Source of the DNA: a virus
DNA: 46,659 bases
Strand: one strand, 5' to 3'
Virus record (IMG/VR): IMGVR_UViG_3300033141_004895
Span: 1 to 46,659 of that record
Shown here piece by piece: positions 2,863 through 41,762 of this stretch; the stretch's first letter is position 1, and every line of letters starts with the position of its first letter. A program made the translations under genes and the position numbers. Under the pieces are notes generated by a model, which was given only the letters and a program-made list of their open reading frames with translations, did not search any database and was not told the DNA's origin.

Positions 2863-3250
2863 TGTGCTGGACATAATCCACGTGTTCTACGATTCCTCTG
2901 GGCTTTACCAGGTGGACCCCCGTTCTCTGTCTTCCTCTTGGAAATCCGAGGACTCAGGCACTCCCACTTACTGGTATCAGACCGAAGGCGATCCAACCGA
3001 CCTTTCCCTCTGGCCTCCTCCTGATGCAGACAACGAGGACATCCACGCCATACTCAAGGTGGGCACGAGGCTCGACGCTTCAGGTGTTCCGACGGTCTTC
3101 GCCTTGCCCCACTACCTCTACGCCCTCCATCTTGCCTTCATGTACGAAGGGGAAGGAAAGGACCCAGACCGCTCCCAGTTTTTCCTCACCCTCTTCCAGG
3201 CAGTCATGTCCCACCTGATGTCCACCATCCTTGCCTACAGGAGGCTCTGA
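2855..3250 (+). CDS. C-terminal part of a split adaptor protein
   Basis: 131 aa from a TTG start with GAGGAGGAG 7 bases upstream. It begins ADVLDIIHVFYDSSG and contains GTPTYWYQTEGD and LSLWPPPD, the core seen in the adaptor at 2045, then a helical C-terminus. The start overlaps the upstream stop by 8 bases in the +1 frame. The good ribosome binding site allows independent translation, but the family core is complete only when joined to the 2653 ORF. Confidence 0.62.
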   Translation: MADVLDIIHVFYDSSGLYQVDPRSLSSSWKSEDSGTPTYWYQTEGDPTDLSLWPPPDADNEDIHAILKVGTRLDASGVPTVFALPHYLYALHLAFMYEGEGKDPDRSQFFLTLFQAVMSHLMSTILAYRRL

Positions 3251-3251
3251 T

Positions 3252-5936
3252 ATGCCGAGGACGTGGATACCAGCACCAGCAAAGGGCATGGCTATAGGCG
3301 ACACAGATCCCTCCTTTGCCGCTGAGATCAAGAATTACGTCTTCCAGCAGGATGGAAGCCTTTTGGTCTGTCCTGCGCCTTCCGCTGTTTCTTCTGAGAC
3401 TTGGACTGATTATGGATTGCCTGTGGAGGTTCTTCCTGCCCTCGTAGGTACTAATGCTTTTTTATTGATTGGGACTTTACAATCACAAGGATCCACATGG
3501 ACAAAGGTTACTAGTATCACAGAAGATTCTTATTATACCCTTTCTGTCTATGGATATGGTTTATTCTTTAAGCCGGATGGCACTAAGTTTTATACCACAA
3601 GTATAAGAACCGAAGACAATGGGGCAATTGCGCAATATAGTCTTTCGACAGCTTGGGATTTGACAACTGCATCTCATGAGAAAACGATACATGTTTCCGA
3701 TCAAACTCAATTTGTAGGAGATGTTGCCTTCAAACAGGATGGAACAAAGATGTATGTTACTGATGAAACAGGAGAGAAGATTTTCCAGTATTCCTTAAGT
3801 ACTCCATGGGATATTGGAACAGCCAGCTACGAAGGAAAAGTTTTGACTGTTGAGGGAACGAGTGTAAATTTGGGGGGTATAGTCTTTGGATTAAATGGAA
3901 GTAAGATGTATGTTATTGACATAAACAATGTTGTTTTGCATCAATTCAATCTTTCTGACCCATGGGATATTGAAACGGCTACACTTTTTGCTACCTTGGA
4001 TCTTAGTGCACAAACAAGTGATCCCTATGGAGTAACGTTCAACCCAGATGGCACATTTTTGTACATAACAGGAACTGGTGTAGGTGAAAGGACAATATAC
4101 GTTTATTCTCTGAGTACAGCATGGGATATCAGTAGTGCAAGTTATGATAGTTCTTTAAGTACGGGAGATCAGGGTGTTTACGATATAGTTTTTAAAACAG
4201 ATGGCACTAAGCTTTATGGAACAGCATTGGACAAGCTTTATCAGTACTCGGCAACGTCGTCAAAATATACAAATTTTCCCTATTGTATTCGCTTTTACGA
4301 TTTAGTTAACGATACTTTTGAGGATTATTTGCCTTGTGACCAGTACAGCAATTTTTCTGCTTACAACATTCCTCTTTTCAATCCTTATTCCTCTTCCACC
4401 GCTCCATGGGCATTTGTAGGAGGATGGGGCAACCAGCGGTCGATAAAGATCAAGGTGTCCAGTGATAGCACTTGGAGGTATTTGGGAATAGAAGCACCTA
4501 CCCAAGCTCCTTCCGCCGCTGCAGGGAATGCGGGTTCCTTAGATGGCACTTACTATTTCCGCTACACCTATTACGATTCGTCTTTGGACATCGAGAGCAA
4601 TGGGTCTCCCGCTTCGGATGCCGTTACCGTGGCCAACCAGGAAGTGGATTTGAGCAACATAGCCGGCACAGGGCAGCCGGGAGTGGATAAGATCAGGATC
4701 TATGGCTTGGGAGGGGCAGTAACAGAGTACATGCTGATTGCCACCATTGATAATCCCGGAGAAGGGCAGACCACCAGCTATACCGTGTCCACGGCCGAAA
4801 GTGAGTGGGGGCAAAACATCCCAACCGACCACGATCCCCCACCTTCCGATATTGTCTACCTCGAGTGGAACGAGCAACTGGGCCGCCTCTTTGCCATAGA
4901 CGACGATGGTCGGCTCTGGTGGTCTTCTTCTTGGCAGCCCGATTACTGGCCTACCGATAACTACATAGATACAGGTAGGAAACTCTTGGCTCTTGCCACC
5001 TTCCGGGGCACCACCTATGCCTTTGACCAACATGAAGCCTTTCAGGTTGTGGGTCCAATAAATGACACCTTTGAACTCAGGAAGGTGGCAGACATTGGCA
5101 TTATCAGCCCGACGGCAATAAGGGTGACCAATGCTGGGATAATGGGGATAACTCCTTCCAAGACCGTCTTCCTGTTTGCAGGAGGCTTTGCCAAAAGCAT
5201 AGGAGAGCAGATAGAGCCTTTCCTCAAGGGGGAATACTTGCCCGGTTCCTACTATGGCTACAACCTCTGGGTAGTCTCACAGGCAGGGGATAAGGGCTTT
5301 GTGACCATAGCAGAAGTAGCCCAGGATGGTTCTGAATTGGATATCAAGAGCATTTACACCTTTGTTCTGCACTCAGAAGGGAAATGGACAATGGACGGGC
5401 ATGGCTATATGGCCTTCTGTGATGATCCCCAGTTCCAGCCTCCGGATATTACGACTGGCAGTAGCTATTGGGGCGATAATGATGCAAGGAGAGGGCTTAG
5501 GCTTATAGCCATGTTGCCCAATGGGAAGCCTTACTACTATTACCTTAGCCCACAGGCTACTTATCCAGACAACACTTCTCCTTCCCCGGATAGCCTAAAC
5601 CTCATCCAGAGCAACAGGATTTTCCCCGCCGGCCCGGGCAGGAAGTTCCGCTTAAGAGGCTTTAAGTTCAAAGTGCACAGGGTCCAGGGTACGCCAGAGG
5701 TCAGCGTTACTTTCAAGGTGGATGGTGGAGGTGCAGGGAAGGAGTATAGTAAGAACAACATTTCCATTACGACTGATTACGGTGCACTTGGAACTTTTTA
5801 TCCCACCACCAACTTGATAGGCCATTATCTGAATTATGAGGTTTCCATTTCCAGCAACATTGCTAAGTTCTATGGCTTGGAGATAGAATGGGAACCCATA
5901 GGAGGAGCAACTGAACCAGTGGAGGCACCTGCATAA
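3252..5936 (+). CDS. Large tail-nozzle-like structural protein with propeller-like repeats
   Basis: 894 aa, ATG chosen because AGGAGG lies 7 bases upstream; a TTG at 3231 is less likely. The start (PAPAKGMAIGD) and a later stretch (LEWNEQLGRLFAI, WWSSSWQPDYWP, FRGTTYAFDQHEAFQVVG) resemble the nozzle or tubular tail proteins that follow adaptors in podophages. Between about residues 130 and 300 a motif of the form SLSTxWDIxTASY recurs four times about 50 residues apart with DGTKMYV-like strands, as in beta-propeller blades. This block uses more A+T than the rest and may be an acquired insertion, perhaps for receptor or glycan binding. Confidence 0.72.
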   Translation: MPRTWIPAPAKGMAIGDTDPSFAAEIKNYVFQQDGSLLVCPAPSAVSSETWTDYGLPVEVLPALVGTNAFLLIGTLQSQGSTWTKVTSITEDSYYTLSVYGYGLFFKPDGTKFYTTSIRTEDNGAIAQYSLSTAWDLTTASHEKTIHVSDQTQFVGDVAFKQDGTKMYVTDETGEKIFQYSLSTPWDIGTASYEGKVLTVEGTSVNLGGIVFGLNGSKMYVIDINNVVLHQFNLSDPWDIETATLFATLDLSAQTSDPYGVTFNPDGTFLYITGTGVGERTIYVYSLSTAWDISSASYDSSLSTGDQGVYDIVFKTDGTKLYGTALDKLYQYSATSSKYTNFPYCIRFYDLVNDTFEDYLPCDQYSNFSAYNIPLFNPYSSSTAPWAFVGGWGNQRSIKIKVSSDSTWRYLGIEAPTQAPSAAAGNAGSLDGTYYFRYTYYDSSLDIESNGSPASDAVTVANQEVDLSNIAGTGQPGVDKIRIYGLGGAVTEYMLIATIDNPGEGQTTSYTVSTAESEWGQNIPTDHDPPPSDIVYLEWNEQLGRLFAIDDDGRLWWSSSWQPDYWPTDNYIDTGRKLLALATFRGTTYAFDQHEAFQVVGPINDTFELRKVADIGIISPTAIRVTNAGIMGITPSKTVFLFAGGFAKSIGEQIEPFLKGEYLPGSYYGYNLWVVSQAGDKGFVTIAEVAQDGSELDIKSIYTFVLHSEGKWTMDGHGYMAFCDDPQFQPPDITTGSSYWGDNDARRGLRLIAMLPNGKPYYYYLSPQATYPDNTSPSPDSLNLIQSNRIFPAGPGRKFRLRGFKFKVHRVQGTPEVSVTFKVDGGGAGKEYSKNNISITTDYGALGTFYPTTNLIGHYLNYEVSISSNIAKFYGLEIEWEPIGGATEPVEAPA

Positions 5937-21830: not shown

Positions 21831-22373
21831 ATGAGGATTACGCCGACCAAGGACAAGGTAGGAGGGTTTGAGCTTCCCCCTGAAGGGATTTGGGAAGCGA
21901 CGGTGCAGGTGGTGGAGGAGACCTTCAGGAACGAGGAGGAGAGGGCTGAGTTTGATGCCCTGAGCCCTGCTGAGAGGAAGAAGACACCTGTGAACAGGAT
22001 CAGGGTGCAGTTTGCCCTCCTGGAGGGAGAAGGGGAGGGCCTGCCAGTTTCCCATTTCTTCAGTCTGAGGGGGCGCAAGGGAATGGCGGATCTGCTGAAG
22101 CTGCTCTATGTGACAGGGATCCACAAGGCCATCGAGAAGAAGTATGGTCTGCCCTCCATAGAGGAAGGGTGGGAAGACAATGTCATCAGGTCAAGGAAGA
22201 TGTTGAATGAGCTTTCCACTTCCCTGGTAGGAGCTACCTGCAAGGTGGAAATAGAGCACATAGAGCGGGATGACAGGGTGTTTGCCAACATAGTGGACTT
22301 CCTGGAGGGTGGCTCTGTGCCTCCGAAGGTGGAGAGTGGAGGAGAGGAAGGGGAAGAGGACGAAGGGTGGTAA
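21831..22373 (+). CDS. SSB-like protein with acidic tail
   Basis: 180 aa, AGGAGGTG upstream. N-terminal beta-rich part (GIWEATVQVVEETF, NRIRVQFALLEGEG) and a C-terminal strand (TCKVEIEHIERDDRVFANIV) fit an OB-like fold. The end is a disordered acidic tail (GGEEGEEDEGW) like the partner-binding tails of SSB proteins. Sak4-type recombinases are commonly encoded beside such a protein. Assignment is by architecture and neighbourhood. Confidence 0.65.
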   Translation: MRITPTKDKVGGFELPPEGIWEATVQVVEETFRNEEERAEFDALSPAERKKTPVNRIRVQFALLEGEGEGLPVSHFFSLRGRKGMADLLKLLYVTGIHKAIEKKYGLPSIEEGWEDNVIRSRKMLNELSTSLVGATCKVEIEHIERDDRVFANIVDFLEGGSVPPKVESGGEEGEEDEGW

Positions 22374-22382
22374 TCAAACATG

Positions 22383-22607
22383 GCCGGCATGGCGGAATTG
22401 GTAGACGCAACTTACCGGGAGGAGCAAGCGAGCAGGGTTCGGGCAGGGGCTGCTGGGGAACCGGGAGGTAGTAGTACCCGGGAGGAAGGCCTACGAACCC
22501 TCTTTGGCTCCCCAGTGGTAGCAAAATCCCATAACCCAGCGAGCTGCCAAGGTAGGGCCCACCTCCCGGTAGGAAAGCCCGTGTGGGTTCAAGTCCCACT
22601 GCCGGCC
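22383..22607 (+). ncRNA. tRNA-Leu-like RNA with a large structured insert replacing the anticodon arm
   Basis: A perfect 7-bp acceptor stem (22383-22389 with 22600-22606), a bacterial tRNA-Leu-like D arm (GCG GAATTGGTAGA CGC) and a standard T arm (GTGGG TTCAAGT CCCAC) are all present. Between them no normal anticodon arm can be formed. Instead 22411-22422 pairs with 22562-22573 in a 12-bp stem (one G-U) closing about 139 nt. Inside, GGGTTCG/CGAACCC (22435-22441/22494-22500), CCGGG/CCCGG and TTGGC/GCCAA can pair; CTGGGG/CCCCAG would cross the first as a pseudoknot. The discriminator base is C and CCA is not encoded. It may be a tRNA-mimicking ncRNA; an intron-bearing tRNA is less well supported. 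Confidence 0.72.
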
Positions 22608-22623
22608 TCTCAAGTGGAAAGGG

Positions 22624-22710
22624 ATGTTGGTTAGGCCGGAGATAAGGAGGGAGATGTCTATCCTTGGGCTTCTCCCTCCCCACCAAGGAGAGATGGGATG
22701 TGGAAAGTGA
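22624..22710 (+). pseudogene. Short ORF copying the N-terminus of the ERCC4 nuclease
   Basis: 28-codon ORF whose peptide (VRPEIRREMSILGLLPP) closely matches the N-terminus of the nuclease at 22879 (IRPEIRREMPRLELLPP). Both follow an AAAGRG-ATG start context. The rest of the nuclease is missing. It looks like a vestigial duplicate, or the old gene start displaced by insertion of the zinc-ribbon gene between the two. It overlaps the start of the 22698 gene. Confidence 0.55.
22646..22679 (+). other. Hairpin after the tRNA-like RNA
   Basis: GGAGGGAGA at 22646-22654 is the exact complement of TCTCCCTCC at 22671-22679; loop of 16 bases. No U-tract follows, so it is not a typical terminator. It could protect or process the 3' side of the tRNA-like transcript, or mask translation of the short ORF it lies in. 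Confidence 0.45.
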
Positions 22711-22910
22711 TATTCGTGAGCACTTTGCCCTGTTATGATGACGATTGCCCGGGGTGTCTCAATGGATATTTGACTAGAGGGACCGATGGTGGGGTGGAGA
22801 TGGTGCTCAGGTGCAACGAATGTGGTCGTGAGTGGGGAAGGCTCGGTTGTGACTTTATCCGGAAGGAAGTAGAAAGAGATGGCTGTAATTCGCCCAGAGA
22901 TCCGGCGTGA
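22698..22910 (+). CDS. Small zinc-ribbon protein
   Basis: 70 aa, AAGGAG upstream. Two cysteine pairs, CPGC (with an extra Cys four residues earlier) and CNECG, spaced as in a zinc ribbon. Ends overlapping the ERCC4 nuclease start by 32 bases. Its position between the short nuclease-like ORF and the real nuclease suggests it was inserted there. Confidence 0.65.
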   Translation: MWKVIFVSTLPCYDDDCPGCLNGYLTRGTDGGVEMVLRCNECGREWGRLGCDFIRKEVERDGCNSPRDPA

Positions 22911-23373
22911 GATGCCCCGGCTGGAGCTTCTCCCTCCCCCCGATGAGGGGTTCTGGATCGTGGTGGACACCAGGGAACAGGCCCCTTACTTTAAGGATTA
23001 CCCACAGGTGGTGGTAAAGAAGCTGGATGTTGGGGACTATAGCTTGAAAGGCTTTGAGCAGGAGGTGGCAATAGAGAGGAAGGGGGTAAACGATTTCCTG
23101 ACCTGTGTGGGGAAGGAGCGAGAGAGGTTCCAGAGGGAGTTGGAAAGGATGGGGGGACACAGGCTAAAGGCCCTGGTGATAGAGGGGAGGGAGGAAGATA
23201 TCTACACTTCAGGCTTTTCCCAACTTCCCGCTGCCACTATCAGGTGGTCTCTCATGTCCTTTATGATCCGCTATGGGCTTCATGTTATCTTGGCTCCCAG
23301 GAAGCAGGCTGAAAGGTGGGTTTTTGATATGCTTTACTATTACTATACCAGGAAGAGGAAAGGTACTCTGTGA
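22879..23373 (+). CDS. ERCC4-type (XPF/Mus81-like) structure-specific nuclease
   Basis: 164 aa, GGAAGGAAG upstream. Core motifs in order: VVDTREQ (D30), VGDYS (52-55) and IERKGVNDF, the ERKxxxD signature (E66, R67, K68, D72). No helicase or helix-hairpin-helix domain, as in other compact phage ERCC4 nucleases. Likely cuts branched or flapped DNA during recombination-linked replication. It lies with the Sak4-like, SSB-like and helicase genes. Confidence 0.85.
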   Translation: MAVIRPEIRREMPRLELLPPPDEGFWIVVDTREQAPYFKDYPQVVVKKLDVGDYSLKGFEQEVAIERKGVNDFLTCVGKERERFQRELERMGGHRLKALVIEGREEDIYTSGFSQLPAATIRWSLMSFMIRYGLHVILAPRKQAERWVFDMLYYYYTRKRKGTL

Positions 23374-23553: not shown

Positions 23554-24132
23554 ATGGCAAGGAGGATTAAGCCAACGCCCAAGGACAGCAAGATTGGCAC
23601 CGTGGTGAGCTTCGAGGAGGTCCAGAGGCATGTGGAGGAGATGACCAAGAGCGATAAGCCTCCTGTGATAGTGTCCTCCTCCGATCCCAAGGGGCACTCT
23701 ATCCTCATCCGGTTCTCGGCTCCCAAGTGGTGGGCAGGGGCTGCTGAGAGGGTGATGACGCTCTATCCCCAATGCCGGTCCATTACGGACGCCTACAGGG
23801 CCTGTTTCTATGCCGGTCTGGTGTGGCTCATCAAGGAAGCGGAGCGGTACGATGTGCAGGTGGACGATTACACCAAGGAGCTTTATCTCTACAACCGGAT
23901 AATCGAGATCGAGCTGAACCGGAGACAGATGGCAGATGTGGTAAGGGACACTATCTCAAAGCTGTCCACGGCAATGGAGGAGGGCTTCGTCACCATAGAG
24001 GAGATGGCCACCGTGAGGGATAACCTGGTGGAGAAACTCGCCAAGGCCCTGGAGATCTCCAAAGAGGAGGCCCACTCCATCGCTGCTCCTCCGCAAAGAG
24101 GCAGGCCAGCAAAGAGGCAAAAGGCAAAGTAG
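23554..24132 (+). CDS. Hypothetical protein with AT-hook-like tail
   Basis: 192 aa, AAAGGGGG upstream. Mixed alpha/beta N-terminus, a long helical middle, and a basic tail PQRGRPAKRQKAK containing the R-G-R-P AT-hook core. The tail suggests DNA binding in the minor groove. It is the last gene before the AT-rich inverted-repeat region, so binding to that region is worth considering. No family recognised. Confidence 0.7.
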   Translation: MARRIKPTPKDSKIGTVVSFEEVQRHVEEMTKSDKPPVIVSSSDPKGHSILIRFSAPKWWAGAAERVMTLYPQCRSITDAYRACFYAGLVWLIKEAERYDVQVDDYTKELYLYNRIIEIELNRRQMADVVRDTISKLSTAMEEGFVTIEEMATVRDNLVEKLAKALEISKEEAHSIAAPPQRGRPAKRQKAK

Positions 24133-39002: not shown

Positions 39003-41762
39003 TTGGATCTCAACCAGTATTTGGATAAGATTTACCAGGAGGCCAAGTTTGCCAAAGAGGAAGTGGCCAAAAATTACGACCGCTGGCTCAACCACTATAA
39101 GGGGCAATTCTGGCCCTCCAGGCGCCCCGATTGGCGGGTCTCGGCAGTCATCAACCACTTGGCAGAGCTAATCCAACGGGAAGTCGCCTACCTCACCGAC
39201 AGCCGCCCTGTGATCCGCATAGTGGCCCGCAATGACCACCTGCAGCCTGTTGCCGAGGTGCTCGAGGACATCATCGCCGCCCTCTGGGAGGAACGCAACT
39301 GGCAGCAGAAGCAGCAGGAACTCCTAGTCCTGGCCGCCATCTTCGGTGCCGCCTTTTCCCGCTGCATCTGGAACCCCCAGTTGGACGATGGGCGAGGCGA
39401 CATTGACATTGTGGTCGGTGACCCCCGGGTTTATCTCGTTGATCCCTTCTGCCTCCGGGCCAACCAGCTGGATGAGGCCGAGTACATCATCCACGAGTAT
39501 GTTGTTCCCAAGAATGTCCTCGACGAACAGTATCCCCATTTGGCCCCCCGAATAAAGCCCACCTATGGAGCAGATGAGGAGGAAAAGGGCTTCAGGCACT
39601 TCCTCCGCAAACTTCTCTTTGGCACAGAGAAGGAGCAGAAAGCTATTGTCCCCCGCTGCCTTGTCCAGGAATTCTGGATCAAGGACAGGAGCCGGGTGGA
39701 GCTTGAAGACGGCCAGTCGGTGCGCAAGTATCCAGGGGGCAGGCATATCGTCCGGGTCGGGAAGGTCATCCTCAAGGACGAACCTAACCCCTACATAGAC
39801 GAGCACTTCCCGATCGATATGTTCGACTGGAGCTTCAATCCCAACAATGCCTGGGGGATATCCGAAGTCGAATACCTCCACAGCCTCCAGGAGATGTACA
39901 ACAAGCTGATGGCCATCATAGTGGAACACGCCATCCTCACCTGCAATGCCGTCTGGATTGGCGAGGAGGACGCCCTCAGTCCCGCTGCCTGGAGCCGGTT
40001 GACCAACAAGCCCGGAGCCATCGTGAGGGTACGCCCTGGCAAGACCCTGCACCGGGAACCCCCTCCACCGCTTCCCGCCTATATCCAGAACGCAGTCCAG
40101 TACCTTGAGAACCAGATGCAGGTGCTGAGTGGGATGACGGATGTGATGAGGGGGGAGAGAGGGGCGCTGACATCGGGGGTGGCCATTGAGTGTGTGGATG
40201 CCGAAACGGAATGTTTGACGAAACGAGGGTGGAAGAAATATTGGGAGATTGAAGAAGATGATGAGATATATGTCTTCAATCCACAAACTGGCCATGGCGA
40301 ATGGTCCCCTCTTTTGAGGCTAAATGTGCAGGAAGAATATAGCGGCCCAATGTATGTGTTGAAGAATAAAAATATAGACGCCTTTGTGACTCCTAATCAC
40401 CGTTGGCTCGTGGGATCTACTAATGGGCATTTCAGAGGGGGAAAGTGGAAATTTTTACAGACCCCTGAGCTGAATACAGACGATTTTATTCCTTCGGTTG
40501 CCCCTATAGATGGAGTTGAGTGTTCTGAATACGATGATGCTCTTGTGGAATTGATTGGATGGATTGTTACCGAGGGAGCCTATTACTTAAAGAAAGTGGA
40601 TGGGCATACTTATCCAGAGATTCTTATCCACCAGTCAATTGCAAACGAGCGGAATTGTGATCGGATAGAGAAATGTTTGAGACAACTTGGGATCCATTTT
40701 ACAGTTCGACATGATAGCAGACCTTGCCGAAATCACCCGATTAGGATATGGACAATTCGTGGTGAGTGGGCTAAGAGGATTATGGGCCAGTTTCCCGATA
40801 AAAGGCCGGGGTATGAATTTATTACCTCCCTTCCAAGAAGGCAGTTGATTCTTCTTGCTGAAGCTATGCTCTTGGGGGATGGAAGGTGGTTTGGAATGAA
40901 TCCTCCACACAAGAATATAAGCATTGAGTTTTTCTCCTCGGATAAGGAGTTGATAAACCAGTTCCAGATGATCCTTACGTTAGCTGGTTTTGCAAGTTCT
41001 AATGGAATTGTACCACACTATGAAACAAGCTTCTTCAAGGGCAATCATAGGTCTGAGAGATATGGAGACTGCCTTAGAGTTACTTGTAAAAGAACCGGGA
41101 AAATAGGCATAAGGAATTTGCGGGACCATGGTGACTTTATGCAGGTTGATTATAAAGGACCGATCTGGTGTCCAACTACCACAACGGGCACTTGGGTAGC
41201 TAAGAGGAATGGAAAGGTCTATATTACTGGTAATAGCCTCCAAGTAGCCAGCCAGGCCATTGTCCGCCTCCGTGCCAGAAGCTTTGAGCAATTCCTCTCC
41301 CGCATAGGGCAAAAGCTGATATCGAGGATCTTCCAGTTCTACACCACGGATAGGGTTATCAAGATCCTCGGACCAGACGGAAACATCAGGCAGTACGAGT
41401 GGGTGAGGAAGCAAATCATGGATCCCATCCAGAGGTACTACGAGGGCGACTACCGCCAGAAGCTCCACTCCGCTTTCCGTGACCTCCAGTTCAAGGTGGT
41501 CGAAGGCTCCTCCCTCGCCATGAACAAGATCCAGAAGGTCATGATGGCTATTACCTTCTACCGCATGGGTGTGATAGATGAAAGGGCGCTGTTGGAGATT
41601 GCCGAGTGGCCTCACAGAGAGGAGATTTTGGAGAGGAAGGCTCAGGCAATGCAGCAGCAACAGAGCAGGCCCACCAAGTCGGTAAGGGTTCCAGAGCCCT
41701 CGAGGCAAATGGAGGCTGAGATGAGGGCAAAAGGATTAACAGGGGAGGCGTTGAAGCCATGA
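39003..41762 (+). CDS. Portal protein interrupted by an intein
   Basis: 919 aa precursor from TTG with AAGGAGGTG 6 bases upstream. Residues 1-396 and 745-919 together form a 571-aa portal: helical start (LDKIYQEAKFAKEEVAKNYD), FPIDMFDWSFNPNNAWGIS, then LQEMYNKLMAIIVEHAILT, SGMTDVMRGERGALTSGVAIE and, after the intein, SLQVASQAIVRLRARSFEQF. The portal is the twelve-fold ring for DNA passage and binds terminase. Splicing is required because the insertion splits the conserved GVAIE-SLQ segment. Confidence 0.88.
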   Translation: MDLNQYLDKIYQEAKFAKEEVAKNYDRWLNHYKGQFWPSRRPDWRVSAVINHLAELIQREVAYLTDSRPVIRIVARNDHLQPVAEVLEDIIAALWEERNWQQKQQELLVLAAIFGAAFSRCIWNPQLDDGRGDIDIVVGDPRVYLVDPFCLRANQLDEAEYIIHEYVVPKNVLDEQYPHLAPRIKPTYGADEEEKGFRHFLRKLLFGTEKEQKAIVPRCLVQEFWIKDRSRVELEDGQSVRKYPGGRHIVRVGKVILKDEPNPYIDEHFPIDMFDWSFNPNNAWGISEVEYLHSLQEMYNKLMAIIVEHAILTCNAVWIGEEDALSPAAWSRLTNKPGAIVRVRPGKTLHREPPPPLPAYIQNAVQYLENQMQVLSGMTDVMRGERGALTSGVAIECVDAETECLTKRGWKKYWEIEEDDEIYVFNPQTGHGEWSPLLRLNVQEEYSGPMYVLKNKNIDAFVTPNHRWLVGSTNGHFRGGKWKFLQTPELNTDDFIPSVAPIDGVECSEYDDALVELIGWIVTEGAYYLKKVDGHTYPEILIHQSIANERNCDRIEKCLRQLGIHFTVRHDSRPCRNHPIRIWTIRGEWAKRIMGQFPDKRPGYEFITSLPRRQLILLAEAMLLGDGRWFGMNPPHKNISIEFFSSDKELINQFQMILTLAGFASSNGIVPHYETSFFKGNHRSERYGDCLRVTCKRTGKIGIRNLRDHGDFMQVDYKGPIWCPTTTTGTWVAKRNGKVYITGNSLQVASQAIVRLRARSFEQFLSRIGQKLISRIFQFYTTDRVIKILGPDGNIRQYEWVRKQIMDPIQRYYEGDYRQKLHSAFRDLQFKVVEGSSLAMNKIQKVMMAITFYRMGVIDERALLEIAEWPHREEILERKAQAMQQQQSRPTKSVRVPEPSRQMEAEMRAKGLTGEALKP
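40191..41234 (+). mobile_element. Intein with LAGLIDADG homing endonuclease in the portal gene
   Basis: 348 aa in frame. Block A starts with Cys1 (CVDAETECLTKRGW); block B has TPNHR at 68-71 region; LAGLIDADG-type helices are LIGWIVTEG (about 121-129) and LAEAMLLGDG (about 221-231); the end is GTWVAKRNGKVYITGN before Ser +1. The usual penultimate His is Gly here. The element is visibly richer in A+T than the flanking portal sequence, indicating recent acquisition. The endonuclease acids (E or D ends of the helices) look intact, so homing may be active. Confidence 0.92.

Follow-up and report, generated by a model that had tools for sequence, protein, structure and literature searches.

A phage RNA with a tRNA-Leu body and a structured domain in place of the anticodon arm, and the RNAs that share its body

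In tmRNA (RF00023), the space between tRNA ends is taken up by an extended stem and pseudoknots that replace the anticodon arm, and the RNA has identity for a synthetase that ignores the anticodon. tmRNA is further defined by its alanine identity (G3:U70), a shortened D arm, a tag reading frame and the partner protein SmpB. The stable RNAs C and D of phage T4 (species 1 and 2) are phage-encoded and lie next to tRNAs, and RNA C has a tRNA-like T arm, CCGGGTTCGAATCCCGG, at its end. A tRNA-like fold is also found in the noncoding RNA YrlA, as a module of a Y RNA, and group I introns reside within tRNA-Leu(UAA) genes. In engineered tRNA scaffolds, an approach used in PMC3753655, the anticodon arm is swapped for a foreign structured RNA, which gives stable expression.

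The leucyl system is of particular relevance here. The determinants of E. coli LeuRS are A73, the A15-U48 pair, G18G19 and A20a, and the enzyme does not depend on the anticodon or on the long variable arm; a minimal tRNA-Leu that lacks both arms is charged, and C73 abolishes charging (tRNA identity review, PMC9976931).

In this paper we describe an RNA encoded by a virus genome, IMG/VR record IMGVR_UViG_3300033141_004895, whose whole 46,659-nt stretch is called the window below. The RNA lacks defining features of a tRNA, of tmRNA, of YrlA and of group I introns, and it is one member of a class, not the curiosity of a single phage. Its nearest described relative in kind is T4 RNA C, which differs in having no tRNA-Leu D arm, no clean 7-bp acceptor by eye and no sequence relation that we could see. 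Unlike tmRNA, the window RNA has a leucine-type D arm and A15-U48, no tag, and the window encodes no SmpB. YrlA contains its tRNA-like part as a module, whereas here the tRNA body is the frame. The inserts of the class, at 55-200 nt, are mostly too short for group I introns, and the anticodon arm of the exons is absent. Engineered scaffolds share the same plan and are artificial, whereas the phage RNAs are natural and variable. We found no description of such a class in a literature search whose scope stopped short of preprints and most subscription journals.

The window RNA and its genomic setting

The positions of the RNA and its surroundings are given in Table 1. The acceptor GCCGGCA/TGCCGGC is Watson-Crick paired at 7 of 7 positions, the D arm reads TGGCGGAATTGGTAGACGC, the T arm reads GTGGG-TTCAAGT-CCCAC, and U48 is in place to complete A15-U48, so the tRNA-Leu type of acceptor, D and T arms that had been recognised from the letters stands. 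A leucine-anticodon arm is absent. The discriminator is likewise not that of tRNA-Leu: it is C, not A, and G-1 could pair with this C73 to give an acceptor of 8 bp. The anticodon and variable arms are replaced by a GC-rich domain of 139 nt, closed by a 12-bp stem that begins 2 nt past the D stem. No terminal helix as good was found in 200 shuffled inserts, and the closing stem is thus real and beyond chance. Keeping the tRNA body and this stem gave -101.7 kcal/mol, 0.2 kcal/mol above the unconstrained minimum of -101.9, and the whole RNA had a folding z of -1.85 against dinucleotide shuffles (7 of 200 as good).

Table 1. Coordinates of the window RNA, its parts and its neighbourhood, with the evidence for each
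Feature	Position	Strand	Evidence
Window RNA, tRNA-Leu-bodied, no anticodon arm, acceptor to acceptor	22383..22606	+	sequence, structural filter, constrained fold
Acceptor 5' strand GCCGGCA, partner 22600-22606	22383..22389	+	7/7 pairs; all seven pairs covary across the class
D arm GCG-GAATTGGTAGA-CGC, tRNA-Leu type	22392..22408	+	sequence, constrained fold
Closing helix S1, 5' strand CTTACCGGGAGG	22411..22422	+	0/200 shuffles; constrained fold
Structured payload domain, 139 nt	22423..22561	+	-55.7 kcal/mol folded alone; insert z -1.81
Candidate helix GGGTTCG, partner 22494-22500	22435..22441	+	fold; not significant on its own
Candidate helix S2 CGGGC, partner 22577-22581 beside U48	22440..22444	+	weak here, p 0.5
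Closing helix S1, 3' strand CCTCCCGGTAGG	22562..22573	+	shuffle test; constrained fold
U48, Levitt pair partner of A15	22582..22582	+	U48 in 140/144 class members listed
T arm GTGGG-TTCAAGT-CCCAC	22583..22599	+	sequence, structural filter
Acceptor 3' strand TGCCGGC	22600..22606	+	structural filter, constrained fold
Discriminator position C; possible pairing with G-1 at 22382	22607..22607	+	A in 109/144 listed members
257-bp cassette holding the whole window RNA	22378..22634	+	blastn: 22377 and 22635 adjoin in both close relatives
Gene of 180 aa, upstream, co-oriented; stop 9 nt 5' of the window RNA	21831..22373	+	gene calls, protein search
ERCC4-type nuclease gene, downstream, co-oriented	22879..23373	+	protein search

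Inside the payload, two interleaved 7-bp helices are possible (22435-22441/22494-22500 and 22453-22459/22509-22515). The pseudoknot that the sequence-only reading had offered as a possibility can therefore be drawn, and its energy in this insert taken alone is not significant (p 0.23). S2 is an alternative to the first of these helices; together with S1 it could give the order S1-S2-S1'-S2' known from short members of the class. The payload had no match in 50,697 phage records, and its fold rests on one sequence because it is without a relative. A 15-nt direct repeat, GGGCAGGGGCTGCTG, occurs in the payload at 22441-22455 and at 23732, about 1.3 kb downstream, and may be a chance product of a G-rich region.

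Database models were silent at this locus. ARAGORN reported nothing in the window, which, with the missing anticodon arm, agrees with the first judgement that it is not a normal tRNA. None of the 4227 Rfam families matched at its gathering threshold over the window, permissive thresholds gave noise only, and scanning with a pattern specific to the window RNA turned up no further copy. There was accordingly no covariance-model match to tmRNA, to YrlA or Y RNA, or to group I introns. The acceptor pair 3:70 is C-G in place of G3:U70, SmpB was not found in the genome, and no exons join to a tRNA, so that the exclusion of tmRNA and of a group I intron was upheld. Kinship with YrlA had been entertained, and is not supported, in that a linked Ro/Rsr (TROVE) gene is also missing from the window, an absence that the sequence-only reading had itself recorded.

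The genome encodes a terminase, a P22-like portal, an SU10-like capsid protein, a Sak4-like annealing protein, an ERCC4-type nuclease and a helicase. The portal gene (39003-41762) has an apparent LAGLIDADG-type insert, likely an intein.

Two virus contigs (L004 and L005) have flanking proteins 85-91% identical to those of the window and, by blastn, lack exactly the 257 bp of the cassette, which consists of the window RNA with 5 nt before and 28 nt after it. Both relatives join the flanking bases directly, and therefore the cassette was gained or lost as a unit. A tRNA-Leu D arm at up to 2 mismatches is absent from the records of both relatives, one of which is a 21-kb fragment only. This presence and absence between close relatives was computed directly. 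A frame of 84 codons (22380-22634) starts 2 nt inside the cassette and ends with a stop codon formed by its last three bases, as a protein gene carried by the cassette might do. It is nevertheless hardly credible as a gene, with no Pfam, PHROG or tblastn match and a course that runs through tRNA arms under class-wide pairing constraint.

The class and the selection on its body

IMG/VR was first scanned with a pattern of D arm and T loop 150-180 nt apart. Matches to the generic pattern were largely tandem tRNAs, and an acceptor-pairing filter was applied; after tandem tRNAs had been removed, many matches had fully complementary acceptor stems. Further pattern scans with structural filtering gave at least 144 distinct Leu-bodied RNAs without a restorable anticodon arm, from unrelated viruses; Dysgonomonas macrotermitis DSM 27370 (L179) is a carrier by way of a prophage. 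The window RNA has the features by which the class is defined, namely a tRNA-Leu D arm, a T arm, 6-7 paired acceptor bases, an insert of at least 55 nt, and no tRNA recoverable by a single cut.

Of the non-redundant D-arm signatures, 64 had a distant T arm but formed no ordinary tRNA; in 59 of these the acceptor was paired at 6 or 7 of 7 positions, compared with 7% of permuted acceptors. Long tRNA-like structures of all isotypes numbered 121 in 1.67 Mb of loci and 0 in shuffled loci. The 144 listed class RNAs have 74 different acceptor stems, with compensatory changes. When one RNA was taken per acceptor (n = 74), every pair occurred as three to four Watson-Crick types and about 98% of pairs were standard, a proportion that is partly imposed because the filter demanded 6/7 pairs; the variety of pair types was not imposed. 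Also free of the search were U48 (140/144 listed members), A73 (109/144) and C74 (120/144), the last being just as frequent in the ordinary tRNA-Leu genes at these loci. Conservation of the D arm and the T loop is no evidence, because both were imposed by the search patterns. The body, the class, the compensatory acceptor changes and the lack of a restorable anticodon arm are thus direct results of computation, and phage RNAs with a tRNA-Leu body and variable inserts very probably form a class. The best reading is that these payload RNAs are a new class of phage RNA. A tRNA-mimic class outside Rfam had been suspected from the letters of the window RNA, and the compensatory changes whose absence would have counted against it are present in the relatives.

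The same results bear on whether the window RNA is a decaying, functionless tRNA gene of host origin, disrupted by an insertion. Its C73 and its absence from two close relatives would fit decay, but its seven acceptor pairs, its D and T stems and U48 are all intact, and compensatory change is strong across the class; we regard decay as very improbable.

Another possibility is a real tRNA gene from which a small intron of unknown type is spliced out. Precedent exists in 46 tRNAs that regain a good anticodon arm once an insert of 29-62 nt between nucleotides 28 and 29 is removed, and in L023, L054 and L250, which are tRNA-Leu with inserts. No single excision from the window RNA, however, gave a product with a Leu anticodon, and the best one-excision product of any kind scored 2.5 of 5.5 (p 0.13), in line with the original statement that no anticodon stem-loop can form; computation yielded no spliced tRNA. 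The closing stem, moreover, occupies the site needed for the tRNA's own anticodon stem. Across Leu-bodied RNAs, one cut restored a Leu tRNA in 6 of 152 (1.6 expected), the three loci just named being among these exceptions. In the control of non-Leu bodies, one cut restored a tRNA in 31 of 85 against 1.2 expected, so the one-cut test has power. One-cut splicing was rejected for this class on the basis of the 6/152 restored and accepted for the separate set of interrupted tRNAs, and for the window RNA an intron is likewise very improbable. Since the control still contains some non-Leu bodies whose inserts are unexplained, the restriction to leucine is a tendency and not a rule.

The 46 interrupted tRNAs, mostly of phages, comprise Lys, Asn, Gly, Ile, Pro, Cys, Ser, Phe and other isotypes (loci include L171, L038, L096, L318, L328, L335, L374, L403, L405 and L412). 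Removal of the insert, which lies exactly between nucleotides 28 and 29, gives an anticodon stem with a 7-nt loop. The motif ACAGC(AA) is common to 17 of the inserts, and another group ends in GTTACTT. Possibly these inserts are a new class of small tRNA intron. Clusters in the cyanobacteria Prochloron, Paraprochloron, Trichormus and Nostoc (L182 2502-5693, L175, L173, L178) contain tRNA-like genes of several isotypes in which the same domain, ATCCTTATTC..GGCCGAAGAATTGAGGGTTAT, interrupts each anticodon arm; several of them give perfect tRNAs on removal of the domain, such as Arg CCU (L182 3176).

Payloads and their exchange

Inserts of the class range from 55 to about 200 nt, and 115 of the 144 listed had no relative by blastn. 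Their structure as a group was computed directly: the mean MFE z was -0.90 against dinucleotide shuffles, and in 32 of the 144 listed inserts the pseudoknot score ranked among the top 5% of shuffles (7.2 expected). The order S1-S2-S1'-S2' is frequent in short inserts, in which 0-4 nt separate the end of the final strand from the T stem. Where inserts are related, changes in helices are compensated, as read from the sequences GTGG-ACGA/TCGT-CCAC (L109), GATG-ACGA/TCGT-CATC (L154) and GGTA-AGGA/TCCT-TACC (L139), and from GCTGAA/TTCAGC in L263 against GATGAA/TTCATC in L311. Antisense pairing of inserts within the same phage gave no signal (9.73 observed, 9.72 expected).

The RNAs of L263 and L311 have 56 of 59 insert bases in common, while their acceptor stems are wholly different, each of them fully base-paired; their flanks showed no similarity at the DNA or protein level. 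The payload of L134 and L167 is not tied to the tRNA-Leu body: in Proteus phage Brookers and fecal phage MT836137 it recurs inside another body, one built of an 8-bp outer stem and a pair of hairpin loops able to kiss. The 95% identical RNAs of Enterobacter phage EcP1 and Providencia phage PSTRCR_117lys, members of different taxonomic groups, combine this second body with another payload. The pattern is thus a constant frame with an exchanged payload, which recombination at the conserved D- and T-arm blocks would explain.

The second body occurs in Proteus, Enterobacter and Providencia phages (L192 2960-3160; L196 2500-2655; L197; L198; L199). Its outer stem is GATTGGTG/CACCAATC, the loops GGCTGA and TCAGC are able to kiss, and it carries differing payloads, one of them also found in the tRNA-Leu class. 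No kinship of this body was found with E. coli prophages. In Proteus phage BPM-V3, which hardly differs from Brookers in the region of the RNA site, a different small RNA with the same outer stem takes the same place (L195 1590-1670). Some inserts of the tRNA-Leu class contain a second T arm and a D-arm-like hairpin, and look like a tRNA-like RNA nested in a tRNA-Leu body (L067 4943-5066, L128 7916-8098, L131 3502-3654, L154 5553-5729, L191 7398-7572); L191 is a contig of Hoylesella buccalis in which the neighbours are phage recombination genes.

Probable maturation and charging, and possible roles

The window RNA retains from tRNA-Leu the acceptor stem, the D and T arms and the 15:48 contact, a large folded domain stands where the anticodon and variable arms would be, and it is one of a broad class of phage RNAs in which the tRNA-Leu body is nearly constant and the payload hypervariable and exchangeable. 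In the mechanism that we propose, RNase P and 3' processing would cut the RNA from an operon transcript, and CCA would then be added. No gene is common to the neighbourhoods among the class loci, and the nearest neighbour genes are co-oriented with about 78% of the class RNAs, which suggests processing from operon transcripts. The class RNAs are probably matured like tRNA.

The class has retained the features that LeuRS requires and dropped those that it does not need. By analogy with the E. coli determinants (PMC9976931), members with A73, which are the majority and include L263 and L113, are probably leucylated. The window RNA is probably not leucylated, the prediction resting on its C73, and it cannot decode because it has no anticodon.

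As a whole, we hold with moderate confidence that the best explanation is a phage tRNA mimic, one of a class with exchangeable payloads, matured like tRNA, with A73 members leucylated and a decoy or inhibitor as the likeliest role. That role in itself is put forward only tentatively: the body would provide stability or binding to tRNA proteins, and the payload would interact with a rapidly evolving factor of the host, such as a tRNA-targeting defence or a tRNA-handling enzyme. A host-directed role is placed first because payloads change fast and there is no partner gene. A more specific form, possible but somewhat unlikely, is that phages carry a large family of leucine-chargeable, anticodon-less bodies as a chassis, with pseudoknot payloads swapped at the D- and T-arm blocks and used against tRNA-directed enzymes of the host.

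Next likeliest as a role, and itself unlikely, is that of a stable scaffold on which the payload performs some other task. The body would then contribute only end processing and nuclease resistance, and the function of the payload would be unrelated, for instance the binding of a phage protein. The presence of the L134/L167 module also in the kissing-elbow body of Brookers and MT836137 is what such a scaffold would allow, but strict U48 and frequent A73 suggest that recognition as tRNA-Leu matters and not the ends only.

The layout of the class, with tRNA ends, an extended stem at the position of the anticodon and pseudoknots, also recalls a tmRNA-like device, in which a leucine-charged tRNA-like domain would act on stalled ribosomes. 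Leucyl- and alanyl-tRNA synthetases alike ignore the anticodon, and in phage L109 a real tmRNA gene (4277-4644, minus strand) lies about 1 kb from a Leu-bodied anticodon-less RNA (3113-3333, minus strand). Against this, besides the tmRNA features already found missing from the window RNA (SmpB could be supplied by the host), there is little space for a tag frame in inserts of 55-75 nt, and the inserts lack conservation. We consider such a device improbable.

If the class is real in cells, it would be a widespread tRNA-derived RNA platform in phages, missed so far because tRNA finders reject its RNAs and the inserts share no sequence. It would then bring to light a new kind of phage-host RNA conflict and natural examples of tRNA scaffolds, and would offer a direct test of LeuRS charging RNAs that are unable to decode.

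Two further features of the class concern its acceptors and copy number. The acceptor AGTCAGG/CCTGACT is present in 60 of the 144 listed class RNAs but, among the 109 ordinary tRNA-Leu genes found at those loci, in only 4. Two phages, L134 and L131, each encode two or more Leu-bodied RNAs with differing inserts, and in L134 both have the same acceptor stem.
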